Source: a bacterium
GTDB lineage: Bacteria > Patescibacteriota > Saccharimonadia > Saccharimonadales > JAUPVS01
Reading direction: 5' to 3'
Assembly (NCBI GenBank): GCA_029780855.1
Contig: JAKOXV010000013.1
Span: 92,873 to 125,626, forward strand
Length of the DNA stretch: 32,754 nucleotides
Each line of letters begins with the position of its first letter. Position 1 is the first letter of the stretch. Shown here in pieces: positions 16,800 through 32,561 of this stretch. The notes under the pieces are model-generated. The model worked only from the letters and a program-made list of their open reading frames with translations. It did no database searches and was not told the origin of the DNA. A program made the translations under genes and the position numbers.

Positions 16800-18116
16800 A
16801 TGGACACCAAAACTACCAGAACTTCCTTTCGGCGACTGTTTTATACCGGATTAGTTGCATCAATTACAATTCTCTTGATTGGTTGGTGGCTAGGTAGTGG
16901 AGATATGTTTCATCTTCCTGGCGGGCAATTAATTGCGCTGGGAAGATTGTTTGGTCTACTAGCAACCTTCTCAATTCTGTTGGAGGTGCTTTTAATAGGA
17001 CGAATACCGTTTATTGAAGAAAGTTTTGACCTCCATGAGAATATGGAACTTCACCGATTGAACGGTTACCTTATGTTGCTTAGCATCAGTGCGCATATCG
17101 TATTTTTTGTAATAGGTTACGGAGTTGGAGGGCATTTAGGTTGGTGGCCACAATTTTTACAACTCAATACTCAGTTTGAAGATGTTTTCAAAGCGACCAT
17201 TGGTACTATGATATTTTTTGCAGCTACTGCTGTTTCTGTGCAAGCGGTTCGTAAACGAATGCGCTACGAAATCTGGTTTCTGTCTCATCTCACCATCTAT
17301 GCAGCAGTACTACTAACATTTCTACACCAGGTCAATTCTGGGGGCGATTTTGTGAAACAGCAGTGGTTCGTGGCGTACTGGTATATGCTATATCTGCTCG
17401 TTTTTGGGCTCTTAGGTATATACCGGTTTATACGCCCCCTATATATAACCCTGAAACATCGATTTAAGGTTTCTGAAATCGTTAGTGAAGGAGAAGGAAT
17501 TTATTCCATCTACGTTACGGGTAGAAATATTGAGCAGTATGCTTTTCGCCCAGGGCAATACGCTACCTGGTGGTTTATAGCGCCCGGTATGTGGTGGGAA
17601 GGGCATCCATTTTCATTTTCTGTGGCGCCACAGAAGGATAGGCTTAGACTAACAGCCAAAGCAGGGAGCGGCGATTTTAGTGCCAAACTTCAGAACCTTG
17701 CCGTGGGAACTCCCGTGATCATTGATGGACCAAGAGGTGCATTTACGCTTGAACGAGCTACTTCTCCCGACATTCTTCTCATCGCCGGCGGCATCGGAGT
17801 AGCACCGTACCTAAGCTATATTGACCAGCTCATCGGGGAAGGCAAACGGGTAACCCTACTGTATGCAGTTCGCCATCCCAAACAGATCGCTTTCAGGAAC
17901 GAACTTGCCGCCTTACAGGGGAGGGGCTTGCGAATAGAGGTGTATGTTAGTGGTAATAATAGATACATCGATCAAGCTGCCATTGCACCGTTTGTTGGGC
18001 CAAATACAGTGGCATACATTTGTGGGCCAGATGGCATGTCAAAAGACATAGAGACACTTCTAAAGCACAACGGCTTTCCACAAAAGAGAATTATCAGCGA
18101 GCGGTTTGCGTTTTAA
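16800..18116 (+). CDS. Ferric-reductase-like transmembrane flavocytochrome with FAD/NAD(P)-binding domains
   Basis: Paired TM histidines (LHRLNGYLMLLSISAH; LSHLTIYAAVLLTFLH), FRPGQYATWWF, HPFSFSV, LLIAGGIGVAPYL, YICGPDGM. Confidence 0.92.
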   Translation: MDTKTTRTSFRRLFYTGLVASITILLIGWWLGSGDMFHLPGGQLIALGRLFGLLATFSILLEVLLIGRIPFIEESFDLHENMELHRLNGYLMLLSISAHIVFFVIGYGVGGHLGWWPQFLQLNTQFEDVFKATIGTMIFFAATAVSVQAVRKRMRYEIWFLSHLTIYAAVLLTFLHQVNSGGDFVKQQWFVAYWYMLYLLVFGLLGIYRFIRPLYITLKHRFKVSEIVSEGEGIYSIYVTGRNIEQYAFRPGQYATWWFIAPGMWWEGHPFSFSVAPQKDRLRLTAKAGSGDFSAKLQNLAVGTPVIIDGPRGAFTLERATSPDILLIAGGIGVAPYLSYIDQLIGEGKRVTLLYAVRHPKQIAFRNELAALQGRGLRIEVYVSGNNRYIDQAAIAPFVGPNTVAYICGPDGMSKDIETLLKHNGFPQKRIISERFAF

Positions 18117-18838
18117 GAACGCTGAAAATTACTCGTAAATGATAATTCTGCGGCAGCGCTTATAATCATAGCTTCGTAATCTGGCTGATTTTCAATATAT
18201 TCTTTGCCCTTCGCTACACCCATTGCACATACTGTGGTGGCTAAAATATCGGCTCTAATAATGTCAGGACCACACACCGTAACACTTAAGACTTCTGTCG
18301 CCTTGCTCGCAGTTTTAGGGTTTATGATATGCGCCCCCTTCTCGTACGTTCCCGATGTTGCAATCGCGCCATTTCGTAATGAAATAACACCAATTGTCTG
18401 CATTCTGTTTTGCGGATCAGCAATCCCAATATTCCACGTTTTACTTGAGTTACTACTCACCAAAACATCGCCACCCGCATTTATATAAAAAGTTTGCAAC
18501 TTGTGCTGCCGCAATAGGGTAGCTACCTGCTCTATACTCCAGCCCTTCACATATCCAGAGGGGTCGTATGTACCACCATACCAAGCAGAGAAATAGCCTC
18601 TAGTGTTAGACTCAATTTCCTTACAAGCACCCATGACTTTCATAAAATCTTTGCTAGTATTTTGCAGCTTCAAAGATCCGCTGCGATACCGTGACACCTC
18701 AGTGTTAGGATGATAGGTGCTAAAAATAGAATCAATTTCATGCAGACGGGAGAAACACTCATCGAATATAGTATCGGTAGCACAAGCAGGAACATCAACA
18801 CTAATTGGCATACCCATAATATGTGCCACTCTTCTCAT
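18113..18838 (-). CDS. apbE: FAD:protein FMN transferase (ApbE)
   Basis: MGMPISVDVP, DPSGYVKGWSIEQV, FYINAGGDVLVSS, ATSGTYEKGAHIINPKT. Confidence 0.93.
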   Translation of the reverse strand: MRRVAHIMGMPISVDVPACATDTIFDECFSRLHEIDSIFSTYHPNTEVSRYRSGSLKLQNTSKDFMKVMGACKEIESNTRGYFSAWYGGTYDPSGYVKGWSIEQVATLLRQHKLQTFYINAGGDVLVSSNSSKTWNIGIADPQNRMQTIGVISLRNGAIATSGTYEKGAHIINPKTASKATEVLSVTVCGPDIIRADILATTVCAMGVAKGKEYIENQPDYEAMIISAAAELSFTSNFQRS

Positions 18839-18846
18839 GGCATATG

Positions 18847-19341
18847 TTACCGCTTAGCCTGATCAAGCGCCGCCTGCAGAGAGGTGACATAGCTCTCGCT
18901 AGTATATGTTGCGCCAGAAACGCCATCTATGTGGGCACTTTGAGCTGTGATGGTCTGGCTTTTTAATTCAGGTGCAGCGTGATGAACAATCGAATAAGAA
19001 TGTCCACTCTCATAGGTAAGCGCTGTAAATGTCACGTCGGTAATTTTTCCACCGCCAACCGTAACCATTACCTGTACATCATTGTATGGATTACTTTCTT
19101 TTGTACCAGTGTAGCTTCCATCTTTGTATGCACCCGTGGCACTGTTGTTAGAAACAGGAGATATTGCCACCGCTGCTTGCTGCCCAGAAGTAGCGTGTGT
19201 GGCAGTGGCATTTGTGTCGTTGGACACTTGAACGGTGCCTTTGTTCGATAACCCGTTGTTTACTTTAGAATGTGGCACCACATACGTTGCTAAGACTCCC
19301 AGAACCGCGACCGCTAAAATTATGATGAGCGCCTTTTTCAT
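18847..19341 (-). CDS. Membrane-anchored FMN-binding domain protein (flavinylation substrate)
   Basis: N-terminal TM helix; C-terminal DGVSGATYTSESY matches the ApbE-target SGAT[Y/x]T flavinylation motif. Confidence 0.92.
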   Translation of the reverse strand: MKKALIIILAVAVLGVLATYVVPHSKVNNGLSNKGTVQVSNDTNATATHATSGQQAAVAISPVSNNSATGAYKDGSYTGTKESNPYNDVQVMVTVGGGKITDVTFTALTYESGHSYSIVHHAAPELKSQTITAQSAHIDGVSGATYTSESYVTSLQAALDQAKR

Positions 19342-19567: not shown

Positions 19568-19583
19568 TGTGAAAAAAATCACA
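19568..19583 (+). promoter_or_regulatory. CRP-type operator TGTGA-AAAAAA-TCACA
   Basis: Exact match to the CRP consensus; 21 nt upstream of -10 TACTAT (19605-19610), so centred near -41.5. Confidence 0.75.
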
Positions 19584-19852: not shown

Positions 19853-20515
19853 CTATTTTTTAATCCTCGCTTGGTCATATTCTTCATCAAGTATGGCGTT
19901 TAGTTCGGCGGTGTGCACGATATAGTTTTGCCGCCGGTAGGTTACGACACCCTTTTTTTCTAATTTTTTAAGTTCAATGCCGGTAGTTTCTCTCGTTAAG
20001 CCCATGATGTTTGCTAGATCTTGCTGCGTAAGCGGTAACCCAATCCTAACGGTATTTGGTGCCAATTCCCGGCCATGTCGGATGCTCAAGTAGTGAAGGG
20101 TGTGAATAATCTTATCAATTGCCTTTGGCTGTTCTAGTGCATTTACCCGCATTTGCAGATTAAGATGAGCAACAACGAAGTTTGCAAATACGTCATATAA
20201 AGATTCTTTACGGGTTTTTAAGTACTCAATATACTCCTCTCGAGGGACAATATAGATCTCGCAATCGGTAAATGCACCGTAGTAGTACTGTGCCCACGGC
20301 AATAGGTTAAACACCCAGCCAAGCGGAAATATATCCATTTCTGAATCAAAACTAATGGGGCGTTCTAAACCATCGGAGGTAATAGAATAGCTCTTTACGA
20401 TGCCACGTTTTACCACATAGGCTGACTGTGGCGCTTCACCGCCGATAATAATAAGCTCACCTTTATCGAACTTCTTCGTAGGGAACTTACTGACGAACTC
20501 ACGAAATGCTTGCAT
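19853..20515 (-). CDS. Crp/Fnr-family transcriptional regulator
   Basis: N-terminal cNMP-binding-like beta roll; C-terminal HTH LTQQDLANIMGLTRETTGIELKKLEKKGVV. Confidence 0.93.
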   Translation of the reverse strand: MQAFREFVSKFPTKKFDKGELIIIGGEAPQSAYVVKRGIVKSYSITSDGLERPISFDSEMDIFPLGWVFNLLPWAQYYYGAFTDCEIYIVPREEYIEYLKTRKESLYDVFANFVVAHLNLQMRVNALEQPKAIDKIIHTLHYLSIRHGRELAPNTVRIGLPLTQQDLANIMGLTRETTGIELKKLEKKGVVTYRRQNYIVHTAELNAILDEEYDQARIKK

Positions 20516-24617: not shown

Positions 24618-25361
24618 TTACTTTTTCTTGGTAGTCGTCTTTTTAGCTGGTTTCTTCTTTGCGGCGGCCTTCTTTTTTGCTACTGGCTTAGCTGTAGTAG
24701 TTTTGCGAGAAGCGGTTGCTACTGCATATGTTGGTCGTTCACTTGCAGGCGCAAAAAGATATGCGTATAGGTTGACACCTACTACACCACCAAGTAAGGG
24801 GCCTAACACATATGCTCGACTCCAGGACTGGACTCCCAGTGCTAGGGCTGGATTAGCTAGACCATTTGAAGCAACAGATGCAATCAGTGCTCCCAAAAAT
24901 ACTGCACCACCTAAGGTTGCAGAGTACTTCAGGCCTCTATAGCCAGAATACGCTGCGGCGGCAAAACCAAGTGTCAGCACAAACGCACCAACCACCTCTG
25001 CCACAAACACCTTCCAGCTAAAGGTATTGCCTGCGATGTTTGTAAGTTTTTGACCAACGAGATACACATACAGCTGCCAAGCGGCAAGTGCGCCCAAAAA
25101 CTGTGCAGCAATATATAGCACTGCATCTAGAGTTGAGATTTTTCTGGTCGTCCACATTCCGAGCGTAACAGCAGGATTGTAGTGTGAATTCGATGCTCCT
25201 GCCAAGGCAAGCGACATAAGAAATACTGCAAAACCGACGCCACTCGCAATAAACAAGCTAAAGCCTACGCCCGACTTACTAATAGAGAGAATTACCGTTA
25301 TCATACTGGCAACTCCCAAAAATTCTGCCACAATCATGGCGAATTTAGATCTTCCGAACAT
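24618..25361 (-). CDS. MIP/aquaporin-family channel with Lys/Ala-rich C-terminal tail
   Basis: Two NPA motifs (SHYNPAVTLG; GLANPALALG), six TM segments, tail AKKKAAAKKKPAKKTTTKKK. Confidence 0.92.
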   Translation of the reverse strand: MFGRSKFAMIVAEFLGVASMITVILSISKSGVGFSLFIASGVGFAVFLMSLALAGASNSHYNPAVTLGMWTTRKISTLDAVLYIAAQFLGALAAWQLYVYLVGQKLTNIAGNTFSWKVFVAEVVGAFVLTLGFAAAAYSGYRGLKYSATLGGAVFLGALIASVASNGLANPALALGVQSWSRAYVLGPLLGGVVGVNLYAYLFAPASERPTYAVATASRKTTTAKPVAKKKAAAKKKPAKKTTTKKK

Positions 25362-25437: not shown

Positions 25438-26475
25438 TTATACCGCTTCAGAGGTTTCCGCGCTATCTTTAGGGAGCCGAACAAACAGTCGTAGACTGCC
25501 ATCGGTAAGATCTAACACCGTAGAAACTGCGTCTGCAAGCACATAGAATGCATCCTCACCGTGTTCTTCTAAAATTGCCCATACATCGAGATTAAAGTTT
25601 TGGATCTTTCCTTGAGTAAAACTATTGTAGTGGTCACGATGGAACGTGGTGCCTTCTACGAAATTCAAAGTAAGTGAAACTTCGTTATGTGACCCAACAA
25701 GCTTTTCTACAGAATGCGAGTTTTGACCCTTAAGGTCATCTATGACTAATTCTTTTTTATTAAAGTAGCTCTCTGCATGTTTGGAAAGAATAGCTGCCTG
25801 CTGCTTCAATGCATCTATCTTCTCTTTTGGTATCGTTTGATCTACCGCACCATACATAGCCGAAAGAACGGCTTCTAGTGATTTTGCGCGGTCGCTGATG
25901 TAAACTCCTAGCTTCCGTTCTTGTCCGTCAACTGCACCGCAACCCGTCTTACTTCCTTCGGCATGATCGTCAACGTGATCACCGGGAGCGTATTTGCTTT
26001 GGTTGTGAGAAAGATATGCTTTAACGTCGTCAACGAAAGTGGCTCCTGTTTCATAGCCTTTTTTAAAGCGATCAGCAATCACATCTCCTGCTGTTCCGCC
26101 TTGGACTTGTGGCCCTAGCGCTCTACCATACCAACTTGCAGCGGTATCTTGATAACCCTCAATCGTTCGTCCATCTACACAACGCTTAGGAGCTCCTTCA
26201 GACACATTCACAAAAGATTGTGGCAATCGCTCGGTAGCTGCTTTGACATCTTCTTCGGTTAGCTCTCCTGACTGAAGTCGTTTTTCTAATGAAATTGCCC
26301 CGGTCCAATGCTGTTTATCTGTTTCACCGCGTAATTCTCCAGCATATAAGAAGGTTGCTTCCATCATAGACTTCTCCTGTAGTTCTTGTTTTGTAATATC
26401 TAGTAGATGCTGCTCATCAACAACTTCGTCAGTCGTTTGTACCACATTAAAATCAGAAGGATTCATTTCTTCCAT
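25438..26475 (-). CDS. Zeta-class (cadmium-type) carbonic anhydrase-like protein
   Basis: CVDGR (CxDxR), GDHVDDHAEGSKTGCGAVD (His..GCG metal ligands), VGSHNEVSLTLNFVEGTTF; compared by memory with diatom CDCA repeats. Confidence 0.72.
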   Translation of the reverse strand: MEEMNPSDFNVVQTTDEVVDEQHLLDITKQELQEKSMMEATFLYAGELRGETDKQHWTGAISLEKRLQSGELTEEDVKAATERLPQSFVNVSEGAPKRCVDGRTIEGYQDTAASWYGRALGPQVQGGTAGDVIADRFKKGYETGATFVDDVKAYLSHNQSKYAPGDHVDDHAEGSKTGCGAVDGQERKLGVYISDRAKSLEAVLSAMYGAVDQTIPKEKIDALKQQAAILSKHAESYFNKKELVIDDLKGQNSHSVEKLVGSHNEVSLTLNFVEGTTFHRDHYNSFTQGKIQNFNLDVWAILEEHGEDAFYVLADAVSTVLDLTDGSLRLFVRLPKDSAETSEAV

Positions 26476-26508: not shown

Positions 26509-26537
26509 ATTTTACGCTTGTCTGATCTGTTTTTCAA
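26509..26537 (-). promoter_or_regulatory. Sigma70-type promoter of the carbonic anhydrase-like gene
   Basis: On the minus strand: TTGAAA (26537-26532), 17-nt spacer, TAAAAT (26514-26509). Confidence 0.65.
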
Positions 26538-26565: not shown

Positions 26566-26583
26566 TTGTGACAAATGTCACAA
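26566..26583 (+). promoter_or_regulatory. CRP-type operator TTGTGACA-AA-TGTCACAA
   Basis: 18-bp near-perfect palindrome containing TGTGA-N6-TCACA; 21 nt between TCACA and -10 TACGAT (26604-26609). Confidence 0.78.
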
Positions 26584-26639: not shown

Positions 26640-26999
26640 ATGACCACGACAGGTAAATGTATACCAAGCGTTTTAGAACTACCGGCCGCAGCGTTTGATT
26701 CATCTCTGCGAGACATTGAGGAGCGACCAGAAAAAGTCGACGAAATATGGGCTGAACTTTCTCACGTTAACCAAGAACTGGCACTTTCTATTTTGCGTTC
26801 GTCTGCAATGTTTAAGGCTAGTGGCGAAATACCCGATCCAGCCGCTTTAAAAACAACAATTGCGCTACTTGGCGCCATAGTAAAGCAAGAAACAGCTAGC
26901 AGCTTGGAAGATCAGCTGAACCAGCCTAGCGACGTTGACGGCGAGGTCGTCTACGTCGAATTTCCGCAATTTTCAGACGAACCTGAGAACGATCAATAA
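26640..26999 (+). CDS. Uncharacterised acidic protein (119 aa)
   Basis: ATG at 26640 preceded by SD GGAGGGG (ORF track opens upstream at 26568 inside the operator); promoter at 26604-26609. Confidence 0.8.
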   Translation: MTTTGKCIPSVLELPAAAFDSSLRDIEERPEKVDEIWAELSHVNQELALSILRSSAMFKASGEIPDPAALKTTIALLGAIVKQETASSLEDQLNQPSDVDGEVVYVEFPQFSDEPENDQ

Positions 27000-27363
27000 G
27001 ACTCTGGGCTTTGTCTAAAGAAATTTGGTCGGTCGCTTTGGCTCGTAGTTCCTGAGCATTTTGGTAGGCTTTTTCTACTTCTGCTTGGTTTATTTCATCT
27101 TCGTGATCGGCTTCATCAACCAACACTCGTACGCGATTGTTAGCCACCTCTATAACACCACCGTTCAGTGCAAAATGCTCTAAAAGCTCATCAATATCGC
27201 CAGGTTTTCGCTTAATCGTAGCGATCCCCGGAACGGCAACGCTTACCAAAGGGCTGTGGTTGGGGAGAATACCTATCTCTCCATCAGGGGTAGGGAGGCG
27301 TACCTCGTACACCTCTTCAGAGAACTTTGTACCATCTAGGGTTACCAGTTCAAATTGCAGCAC
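26926..27363 (-). CDS. atpC: F-type ATP synthase subunit epsilon
   Basis: LQFELVTLDGTKF...LPTPDGEIGILPNHSPLVS; last gene of the atp cluster. Confidence 0.95.
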   Translation of the reverse strand: MLQFELVTLDGTKFSEEVYEVRLPTPDGEIGILPNHSPLVSVAVPGIATIKRKPGDIDELLEHFALNGGVIEVANNRVRVLVDEADHEDEINQAEVEKAYQNAQELRAKATDQISLDKAQSLIDRSQVRLKIAEIRRRRPRRQRR

Positions 27364-27365
27364 TG

Positions 27366-28748
<1,383 letters not shown>

Positions 28749-29198
28749 CTATGCTTCTCCTTCGTTTGCTGAATGTGTATACGATGTTTCTCTCGTTACG
28801 TTTATATGCTCTCTTGGCCGGAACCGTGCTACGGTAATTTCCGCTCCTGGTGTATTCTCAAAAAGATACGGCACGGGTACGTCTGCGTATTCGTAATTAC
28901 TACTAAAAACACCAACCCTTGCCCGTCGAGCACTGGTAAATAGTACGGCTCCGAGCGCTATCTTTGCTGCATCAGTCCAACCATCGCGCAACAGGTCTTC
29001 TTGAATTAATACGTGGTCTGCTCTGAAGAATACTTCTGCACGCATGTCGTCAGCGTAAGGGTTTGCAGACGCCGGCAGATCAGTGTAGCCCAGTAATGTT
29101 ACCGGTAGGGGCAATGTAGCTGCGCGACGGATTTCATCAAGGTTACCGTGATCGACATCGTGCAAGATCACTGCTTCAGGAACGTATCCTACGCTCAT
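28749..29198 (-). CDS. Uncharacterised protein encoded within the ATP synthase operon between atpG and atpD
   Basis: 149 aa; start overlaps the atpG stop by 4 nt and its stop abuts the atpD start codon. Confidence 0.85.
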   Translation of the reverse strand: MSVGYVPEAVILHDVDHGNLDEIRRAATLPLPVTLLGYTDLPASANPYADDMRAEVFFRADHVLIQEDLLRDGWTDAAKIALGAVLFTSARRARVGVFSSNYEYADVPVPYLFENTPGAEITVARFRPREHINVTRETSYTHSANEGEA

Positions 29199-30061
29199 TT
29201 GATTGCCTCCGCACCGCCGGTGATTTCTGCGATTTCTTGGGTAATGCTAGCCTGACGCGCAGTGTTGTAGGCTAGGTTAAGATCGTCAATAATTTCATTA
29301 GCGTTATCAGTAGCGTTCTTCATGGCAATCATGCGCATGGAGTGTTCTGATGCAAGGCTTTCAAGAAAGTCCTGCGTTAATTGCGACTCTATGAGCCTAA
29401 GCGTCACATTCTCAAGTACTGCTTTTGGTGAGGGTTCGAATATTGCTTCTTCTAGATCCGGTTCAATTTCTACAGGCTGAAAAGCAGCGGGGAGGAGGTG
29501 ATCGGTAGTTACCTCTTGCCTGATGCTAGAAAGATAGTTCGTAAAAATAACTTCGACCGCATCGACTGATTTTTCGGCAAAGTGCCTAGTCACGGTATTG
29601 AGAATTGGACGGACATCGTTTGATGAAGGATGGTCTGGGAATTCTTCATAAATTCCAATTACATCACAGTGTTCAACTTTGCTAATGAACCGAGCAGCCT
29701 GTTTACCGACTACTATCGCTTGACTTTTTATGCCCAGCTCAACATCATCTTGCAGTCGCTTGGTAAAAGCTTTTAAGACATTGCTGTTGTAGGCGCCAGC
29801 TAGACCACGGTCGCTCGTAATAACTACGTACAGACGAACTTTGATTTTACGCTGCTGGAACAGCGGATGCATATCGACGTCTGTGAGCTCACGCAAGCGA
29901 GTCAGGATCTGACTAGCCATTGCACGATAATCACGTGACTTGGCAGCATTTTCCTGGGCACGACGCATCTTACTGGCAGACACCAGCTCCATTGCCTTGG
30001 TAATCTGCTTAGTGTTCTTTATAGAACCCATGCGCCGTTTTAATGCCTGCGTGCTAGCCAT
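29195..30061 (-). CDS. atpG: F-type ATP synthase subunit gamma
   Basis: ALKRRMGSIKNTKQITKAMELVSASKMRRAQ, TSDRGLAGAYNSNV, MKNATDNANEIIDDLNLAYNTARQASITQEIAEI. Confidence 0.98.
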   Translation of the reverse strand: MASTQALKRRMGSIKNTKQITKAMELVSASKMRRAQENAAKSRDYRAMASQILTRLRELTDVDMHPLFQQRKIKVRLYVVITSDRGLAGAYNSNVLKAFTKRLQDDVELGIKSQAIVVGKQAARFISKVEHCDVIGIYEEFPDHPSSNDVRPILNTVTRHFAEKSVDAVEVIFTNYLSSIRQEVTTDHLLPAAFQPVEIEPDLEEAIFEPSPKAVLENVTLRLIESQLTQDFLESLASEHSMRMIAMKNATDNANEIIDDLNLAYNTARQASITQEIAEITGGAEAIK

Positions 30062-30062
30062 G

Positions 30063-31607
30063 TTATTTCAGGGATTCCTTTACTTCATATGTTTTAGCAA
30101 CATCTTTGGCGACTTTAAGAATGGTATTCTTGATTTCATCAGTTGGCTTGTCGCCCTTGTTGAGAACACCCATTTCTTTCTTTGCGTCGCTGCGTAATCG
30201 TTTTAGCAAGGCGTCTTGAGCTTGCTTAATCTGGTCAACTGGTACGGTATCAAAAACACCCTCGTTGGCAGCCATTAGGGAAGCCGTCTGTTCCCAAACT
30301 GATAGTGGGGAATACTGCGGCTGTTTGAGTAGTTCGGTCAAACGCTGACCTCGGTTGATCCTTGCCTTAGTTTCTTCGTCCAAATCAGTAGAGAACTGTG
30401 AAAAGGCAGCCAGTTCCCGGAACTGTGCTAGTGAAAGACGAAGGTTACCGGCAACACTTTTAACAGCCTTGGTTTGAGCGGAGCCACCCACACGGGATAC
30501 AGACAGACCAACGGAAATAGCAGGCCGAATACCTTGATAGAACAGAGTTGTTTCCATAAATATTTGGCCATCCGTAATGGATATTACGTTTGTTGGAATA
30601 TACGCACTAATGTCACCAGCTTGCGTTTCAATGATGGGTAGAGCAGTAAGAGAACCGGCACCTTTTTCATCGCTCAGTTTTGCGGAACGCTCCAGCAAAC
30701 GAGAGTGCAGATAAAACACGTCACCTGGATACGCTTCGCGTCCCGGTGGACGGCGGAGCAATAGTGACATCTGGCGATAGGCAACGGCATGCTTTGAAAG
30801 GTCATCGTAAATGATTAGCGCATGCTGACTGTTGTCGCGGAAATATTCCCCGATGGCAGTCCCCGTGTAGGGTGCAAGGTATTGCAAACTTGCAGGATCA
30901 GAAGCTGAAGTAGCGATGACGATGGTTTGATCCATCACGCCTTCGCGCTTCAGGCGCTCAATGAGGCGGGCAACTTTGGACAATTTTTGTCCAACAGCAA
31001 CGTAAATGTTAATAACACCGGTTTCTTGCTGGTGCTGGTTAATCATCGTATCAATCGCCACGGCCGTTTTACCAGTTTGGCGGTCGCCAATGATAAGTTC
31101 ACGCTGACCACGGCCAATTGGCACCATGGCATCAATAGCCATAATTCCAGTCATAAGTGGTTCGTGTACACCCTTACGATCCAAAACACCGGGGGCTGGG
31201 CGCTCGACCAAACCTGTTTGCTTGGTTTTTATGGGACCTTTATCGTCAAGTGGCCGACCAAGCGGGTCAATCACACGACCAACAAGCTCTGGGCCAACTG
31301 GCACTTCCAGCACTTTACCGGTTAGTCGGGCGTTGGTGCCTGCTTTTATTTTTATGTCGTTTCCGAGCAATACAGCACCAATTTCATCTTCCATAAGGTT
31401 GAGTGCAAACGCAGTTACTGTCGTTCCATCCTCGGCATCTATTTCGATCATCTCATTAAAGCCACAGTCACTCAGCCCATAGATCCAAGCAATACCGTCA
31501 CCGACTCGGGTTACTACACCTACCGTTTCAAAATCACCCTGTGTTTTAAGCTCATCAATCGCCTTGCGAATGTCTGAACTCAGTTCCTTTATTGAAATAT
31601 CTGCCAT
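30063..31607 (-). CDS. atpA: F-type ATP synthase subunit alpha
   Basis: [60 protein letters not shown]. Confidence 0.99.
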
Positions 31608-31628
31608 CTACGCTCCTTATTTTCCTTT

Positions 31629-32024
31629 CTAAACCACCGCTTTGGTTAATCTCCGCAATTTACCGCGAGCCGTCTCATCAAGCTGTTTTTCTGAAGACTT
31701 AATTTTGATTCCGCTCAAAACCTCAGGGTTTACCTCTTCATTGATAATGAATGTACTGCCACTGGGGTAATGATTTGCCAGTAAATCCTCAATCTGCCGT
31801 TTGGCATCTGAACTTAATGGGAAAGCCGAAGTAATAGTTGCTTCTACTTGTCCTTGTTTTTCCCGTAGGGAACGAACATCTCGCATAAGCTGCTCAAGTT
31901 CTCGGGTCTGATGGGTTTCAACTAGAAAAGCGGCTATTCTCTTGGCTAGCGTTGACTGATCCTTGGTTTCAGAAACCAAAGTCGCTAATACGTTTGCCAG
32001 TTCGCCCCTTGTAATAGTTCGCAC
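31629..32024 (-). CDS. atpH: F-type ATP synthase subunit delta, short form (131 aa)
   Basis: Position between atpF and atpA and C-terminal delta/OSCP-like sequence ending ...NPEVLSGIKIKSSEKQLDETARGKLRRL. Confidence 0.85.
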   Translation of the reverse strand: MRTITRGELANVLATLVSETKDQSTLAKRIAAFLVETHQTRELEQLMRDVRSLREKQGQVEATITSAFPLSSDAKRQIEDLLANHYPSGSTFIINEEVNPEVLSGIKIKSSEKQLDETARGKLRRLTKAVV

Positions 32025-32561
32025 CTACGTAACCTCCTTAAGCAAACGCTCTACAAGCTCTCGATCTTTTTTACTATCAATCTTTTCGCCGATTACCGCT
32101 TCCGTTGTGTCGGCTACTAGATGGACCATTTCTGAACGCAGCTCATTCTTTGCCCGTTGTATATCTTCATCAATGCGATTATGGGCATCTTCAATAAGTG
32201 CCGAAGCCTTACGGGTTGCTGCTTCTTCAGCGGCCTTGATAATCTCTCCTGCTTCACGATGACCACCGGCGATGATTTTGTCAGATTCCAAACGAGCTTC
32301 ATGGAGTAGCTGCTCAACCTTCTCATCTAAGGCTTCTTTTTCCTTTTCCATTTTCATACCCAGAAGCACGCCTTTATTTATGGTTTTTCGGCGATCTTCA
32401 AGGGTGTTAACGATTTTATCAAGCGCGAAACGCTTGATTACCCAAAAGAGAATCAAGAAGGTGACGGCCTGAGCAAGCAGCGCCCACGGATCAATCCCCA
32501 GCGCAGAAATTCCTTGTGGCTCTTCTGCTGCTGCAATTATGTGTGGTAAAAATCCTATCAC
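32025..32561 (-). CDS. atpF: F-type ATP synthase subunit b
   Basis: N-terminal TM (LLAQAVTFLILFWVIKRFALDKI) followed by long charged coiled coil. Confidence 0.95.
   Translation of the reverse strand: MIGFLPHIIAAAEEPQGISALGIDPWALLAQAVTFLILFWVIKRFALDKIVNTLEDRRKTINKGVLLGMKMEKEKEALDEKVEQLLHEARLESDKIIAGGHREAGEIIKAAEEAATRKASALIEDAHNRIDEDIQRAKNELRSEMVHLVADTTEAVIGEKIDSKKDRELVERLLKEVT

Follow-up and report, generated by a model that had tools for sequence, protein, structure and literature searches.

A zeta-class carbonic anhydrase homologue beside the ATP synthase genes of a Saccharibacteria genome

Why would a bacterium with a reduced genome encode, next to its ATP synthase genes, a relative of a diatom carbonic anhydrase (CA)? 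Zeta-class CAs are diatom enzymes only in a 2020 review (PMC7215798, Table 1), and full-text searches of open-licence papers, judged by titles and abstracts, returned no report of a zeta CA in Saccharibacteria or Patescibacteria. The window (the whole stretch of 32,754 nucleotides that was analysed) comes from a Saccharibacteria MAG of 872,261 bases at 97.8% completeness, in agreement with the reduced genome that the original prediction had assumed. Its features are collected in Table 1. On the evidence of family models, predicted fold and aligned residues, the CA gene probably encodes a cytosolic, single-domain zeta-class CA with catalytic activity.

Table 1 Features of the window around the CA gene.
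Feature	Position	Strand	Basis
Zeta-class (CDCA-like) carbonic anhydrase homologue, 345 aa	25438..26475	-	ORF, Pfam, HMM-HMM, Foldseek
CVDGR motif, predicted metal ligand C99 and D101/R103 dyad	26167..26181	-	Residues 99-103, aligned to CDCA1 CVDGR
H167 to C179, predicted second and third metal ligands	25939..25977	-	Aligned to VHGDHSSDMLGCG of CDCA1
Second-lobe motif GSHNEVSLTLNFVEGTTF, residues 261-278, H263/E265/N271/T277	25642..25695	-	Aligned to GSHAEKVVYINLVENKTL
MIP-family channel (aquaporin-like)	24618..25361	-	PF00230, E 6.7e-18; 76 bp downstream of CA gene
atpC, atpD, (149-aa unknown ORF), atpG, atpA, atpH, atpF	26926..32561	-	atpC by PF02823/TIGR01216
CRP-type operator TGTGACAAATGTCACA, between CA gene and divergent small ORF	26567..26582		Perfect TGTGAC-N4-GTCACA
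Candidate promoter TTGAAA-17-TAAAAT of CA gene	26509..26537	-	Consensus scan, 10 of 12
Divergent small ORF, 119 aa from ATG at 26640, no confident family	26640..26999	+	ORF list
Crp/Fnr-family regulator	19853..20515	-	PF13545 and PF00027

Family assignment and predicted metal site

The ORF starts with ATG and its product carries no obvious signal sequence. The Pfam CDCA model (PF18484) matched residues 89–301 with 38.4 bits (curated cut-off, 29.2 bits; E 1.3e-9), which bears out the zeta-class homology proposed in the original prediction, and the same model matched 61 of 75 homologues at E ≤ 0.01, with no other enzyme family recurring among them. The top PDB matches of a 16-sequence family profile were three CDCA1 sequences (E 3e-6 to 8.5e-5); a phmmer search of the PDB with the single protein as query returned no match, and no NCBIfam model matched the protein or its relatives. 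The HMM-HMM comparison that had been proposed as a check was made between the larger-family profile and the three CDCA1 repeats, and matched across the whole domain (residues 88–323) with 97.5% probability and an E of 5e-12, the value for a single-pair comparison. One Saccharibacteria homologue reached 110 bits against the Pfam model; bacterial sequences may therefore already sit in the Pfam CDCA family, and zeta-CA-like proteins may already be named by annotation pipelines. Pfam would already label the CDCA domain of the protein in the window.

The predicted structure points to the same family. An AlphaFold model built from 75 sequences (mean pLDDT 93.1, pTM 0.90) retrieved six PDB chains at E < 0.001 with Foldseek, all of them CDCA1, and the next match had an E of 0.21; a shallower model likewise retrieved CDCA1 only, so that the second proposed check also came out in favour of the zeta class. 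In the Foldseek alignments, TM scores were 0.55–0.57 by CDCA1 length and up to 0.37 by query length, with an rmsd of approximately 10 Å and 15–20% identity to CDCA1. This superposition is loose; we interpret it as one shared fold in which the lobes are displaced and segments inserted. The model had no match in a viral fold library.

CDCA1 of Thalassiosira weissflogii is a zeta-class CA with structures 3BOB, 3BOH, 3UK8 and 7BEZ. It shares with the bacterial protein the CDCA domain, the Cys-His-Cys ligands, the CVDGR, GCG and GSHxE motifs and the order of the two lobes. The bacterial homologue differs in having one domain rather than three repeats, an extra N-terminal extension, a large inter-lobe insertion (approximately residues 185–255) and a His-to-Cys spacing that is two longer; it adjoins an ATP synthase and, unlike CDCA1, is not part of a photosynthetic carbon-concentrating mechanism. 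Beta-class CAs (Pro_CA, PF00484) resemble it in their site, a Cys-His-Cys zinc with an Asp-Arg dyad, and are set apart by the family model, as Pro_CA matched neither the homologue (E up to 1) nor anything in the genome (E up to 0.01). According to one proposal, a single CDCA1 repeat imitates the dimer of a beta-CA (PMC4413181).

The HMM-HMM alignment placed C99 on the Cys of CDCA1 CVDGR, H167 (the H of GDH) on the first His of VHGDH and C179 on the Cys of GCG, with G178-C179-G180 all matched; residues 165–183 read GDHVDDHAEGSKTGCGAVD. GG126-127 and, in the second lobe, H263, E265, N271, T277, F294, D297 and W299 also aligned with their CDCA1 counterparts. For the middle part of CDCA1, the letters were those of the PDB entry in its alignment with a query. 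We take the exact CDCA1 ligands to be the Cys of CVDGR, the first His of VHGDH and the Cys of GCG. This assignment agrees with the placement of the CDCA1-R2 hinge glycines G316 and G324, which lie beside two ligands and have been linked to Cd/Zn exchange; two Cys and one His bind the metal in CDCA1 (PMC4413181). The residue mapping of the original prediction was correct, with C99, H167 and C179 on the three ligands and D101 and R103 on CVDGR, and these three residues are the predicted ligands of one metal. Of the hinge glycines, the one before the Cys is matched by G178 and the one after the metal His is replaced by V168, a change that bears on metal exchange and not on class membership. "Cd-type" is a family name only, and zinc is more likely than cadmium here.

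Across the 75 Saccharibacteria homologues, the mean column identity was 20% and the only invariant columns were C99, H167 and C179. D101 and R103 were each conserved in 96%, H263 in 95%, E265 in 89%, and GG126-127 and F294 in >94%; D101, R103 or H263 was lost in a few copies, and the loop from H167 to C179 spanned 9–25 residues. Cys-His-Cys was also kept, wherever the region was present, in outlying copies at atp loci that were found after the alignment had been made (weakest matches, E 1e-13). The view of the zeta class would be altered by a bacterial branch that is widespread and far diverged yet invariant at its metal site, and such a branch would offer many variants in which to study the choice between Cd and Zn. 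Two genomes (G002 and G038) carry tandem zeta-CA-like genes (L019:4838-6864 and L020:5686-7890), in which one copy is canonical and the other has a changed motif, CPDPR or CIEPR.

Distribution and genomic neighbourhood

With the 75-sequence profile, matches were obtained in 114 of 391 genomes and 78 of 156 genera of the order, leaving approximately 71% of the sampled genomes without one. The gene belongs to a widespread family in this order of Saccharibacteria and is no one-off. A phylum-wide sample gave matches in 8 of 335 genomes with the 16-sequence profile, six of them from this order and two from elsewhere, of which one is marginal; as the profiles were built almost wholly from one order, weakly matching relatives in other orders could go undetected. 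A scan of GTDB contigs with a four-sequence alignment returned two matches, both in Saccharibacteria MAGs of the same order as the source, so the spread outside the phylum cannot be gauged from that scan. Phage and plasmid records held no relatives, nor did IMG/VR when queried with the homologue of G232.

The ATP synthase neighbours noted in the original prediction are real; for the genes other than atpC, the names rest on their order and on clusters of similar proteins in the genomes compared. Context was available for 22 loci, of which two break off where the contig ends, and in 18 of the 20 assessable ones the CA gene stands behind atpC, beside the ATP synthase genes (exceptions, L125 and L133). 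We also inspected the atp locus of 20 genomes that had given nothing or only a partial match with the first profile: eight hold a divergent CA copy (one a fragment), ten have none and two contigs end too early. In G001, the sole other genome of the source's family, the CA gene is absent and the MIP gene directly follows atpC, an arrangement that would fit a loss of the CA gene. The 149-aa ORF between atpG and atpD (28749-29198) has no Pfam match, and small ORFs between atp genes occur in other Saccharibacteria too.

A MIP gene follows the CA gene in about half of the loci, and then, in most, a convergent UvrD-type helicase gene. Co-dependence of the MIP and CA genes was considered and found no support, as genomes with both, either or neither exist; given this independent presence and absence, adjacency alone is no proof of joint function. 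Aligned with E. coli AqpZ, the MIP channels beside CA genes (24618-25361; L019-L156) keep their NPA motifs but have neither the helix-5 His nor the filter Arg that follows the second NPA, and so may not be ordinary water channels. Farther along the window, genes for ApbE (flavin transferase) and an FMN_bind protein adjoin (18113-19341), possibly a flavinylated extracytosolic electron-transfer module.

On its other side, the CA gene is separated from the atp genes by the divergent small ORF, which makes a shared transcript unlikely in the window. In 14 Saccharibacteria genomes, a divergent gene next to the CA gene encodes a 100–140-aa protein of one family that lacks any noteworthy Pfam match (for example, L120:7034-7396, L132:6981-7418, L127:198-614 and L125:7044-7445), including in G018, where the CA gene lies away from the atp locus. 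A comparison of the window's ORF with this family gave no significant homology; the ORF is a positional counterpart only.

Proposed function and alternative readings

In the mechanism that we propose, C99, H167 and C179 would coordinate a single metal ion, which in the cell is most likely Zn2+, with D101 and R103 as the Asp-Arg dyad beside it, and a metal-bound hydroxide would attack CO2, yielding bicarbonate and a proton. The enzyme may serve to handle pH and CO2 near the F-type ATPase. In the genome, no alpha-CA was found, and the carbamoyl-phosphate synthase/biotin carboxylase ATP-grasp family gave one marginal match (20.1 bits, in a 331-aa frame); together with the lack of a beta-CA, this makes pH and CO2 handling more likely than a supply of biosynthetic bicarbonate, within a search that covered alpha- and beta-CAs and this ATP-grasp family. 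That the gene keeps its place behind the ATP synthase operon points to a role in the proton economy of the F-type ATPase. We infer this physiological role and the coupling to the ATPase, and the locus suggests a function in CO2 and acid balance so far undescribed for Saccharibacteria. A gene-essentiality study raises the question of why Saccharibacteria, presumed fermenters, retain an F-type ATP synthase, which is dispensable in one tested species (PMC10633639). A CA that supplies or removes protons beside the ATP synthase is a reasonable and testable idea, and a CO2- and proton-converting enzyme tied to the atp locus would provide a concrete hypothesis on why the synthase was retained.

The same residues and neighbours bear on other readings. 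COS and CS2 hydrolysis arose within the beta-CA fold, and a metalloenzyme of the zeta-CA fold could likewise act on another small-molecule substrate such as these; the wide divergence from CDCA1, the inter-lobe insertion and the variable loop between H167 and C179 leave room for it. We regard this as rather unlikely, as every position aligned with the CDCA1 catalytic residues is kept, and the neighbourhood consists of an ATP synthase and a channel, with no sulfur-metabolism gene recognised. The stricter conservation of the three metal ligands than of any other position, and the few copies that have lost D101, R103 or H263, would fit a protein in which the metal site alone is kept, for non-catalytic metal binding or for metal or redox sensing. 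That D101, R103, GG126-127, H263 and F294 are conserved beyond the needs of metal binding makes such a protein most improbable.

The gene might also have been acquired recently and have no special role in a reduced genome, its proximity to the ATP synthase being accidental. Its absence from G001 and from most sampled genomes of the order would fit such a history, which is nonetheless very unlikely given the position behind atpC in 18 of 20 contexts and at the eight further atp loci; the recurrence of this position across many families points to a gene that is old and has been lost repeatedly. Returning to the zeta-class CA, we put forward tentatively, and at somewhat less than even chances, a broader reading in which the zeta class is bacterial and old and the gene an ancestral member of the Saccharibacteria atp locus, kept in some lineages and lost in others. 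Its enzyme would then act together with the F-type ATPase (and, in part of the lineages, with a MIP channel and a small divergently encoded partner) in the proton and CO2 balance of these host-attached cells. If the class is indeed old and bacterial, the diatom CDCA would be one distant branch.

CRP-type operator and candidate promoter

The CRP-type operator named in the original prediction proved to be a perfect palindrome, and TGTGACAAATGTCACA has no other exact match in the genome. Upstream of CA genes, TGTGA-N6-TCACA occurred exactly at 3 of 32 loci and with at most one mismatch at 9 of 32, counts that are not of fully independent events since the loci are related; dinucleotide shuffles averaged 0.02 and 0.33, respectively, and none of 300 reached the observed counts. 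Permuted half-sites gave at most 0 exact matches and 1 with at most one mismatch. The candidate promoter would place the operator near -72, a usual position for CRP activation, and promoter-like sites in the region upstream of the CA gene were no more frequent than in shuffles. Judged from these sites, the CA gene would be under CRP-family control. The Crp/Fnr-family regulator of the window is one of three proteins with a cNMP-binding domain in the genome. A one-mismatch copy of the operator (G000:C9:210782-210797; L117:1283-1298) lies 19 bp before a CRP-family gene, where autoregulation is possible, and a second CRP-like site, TGTGAAAAAAATCACA (19568-19583), lies upstream of an ORF of approximately 50 aa near the CRP-family gene of the window.
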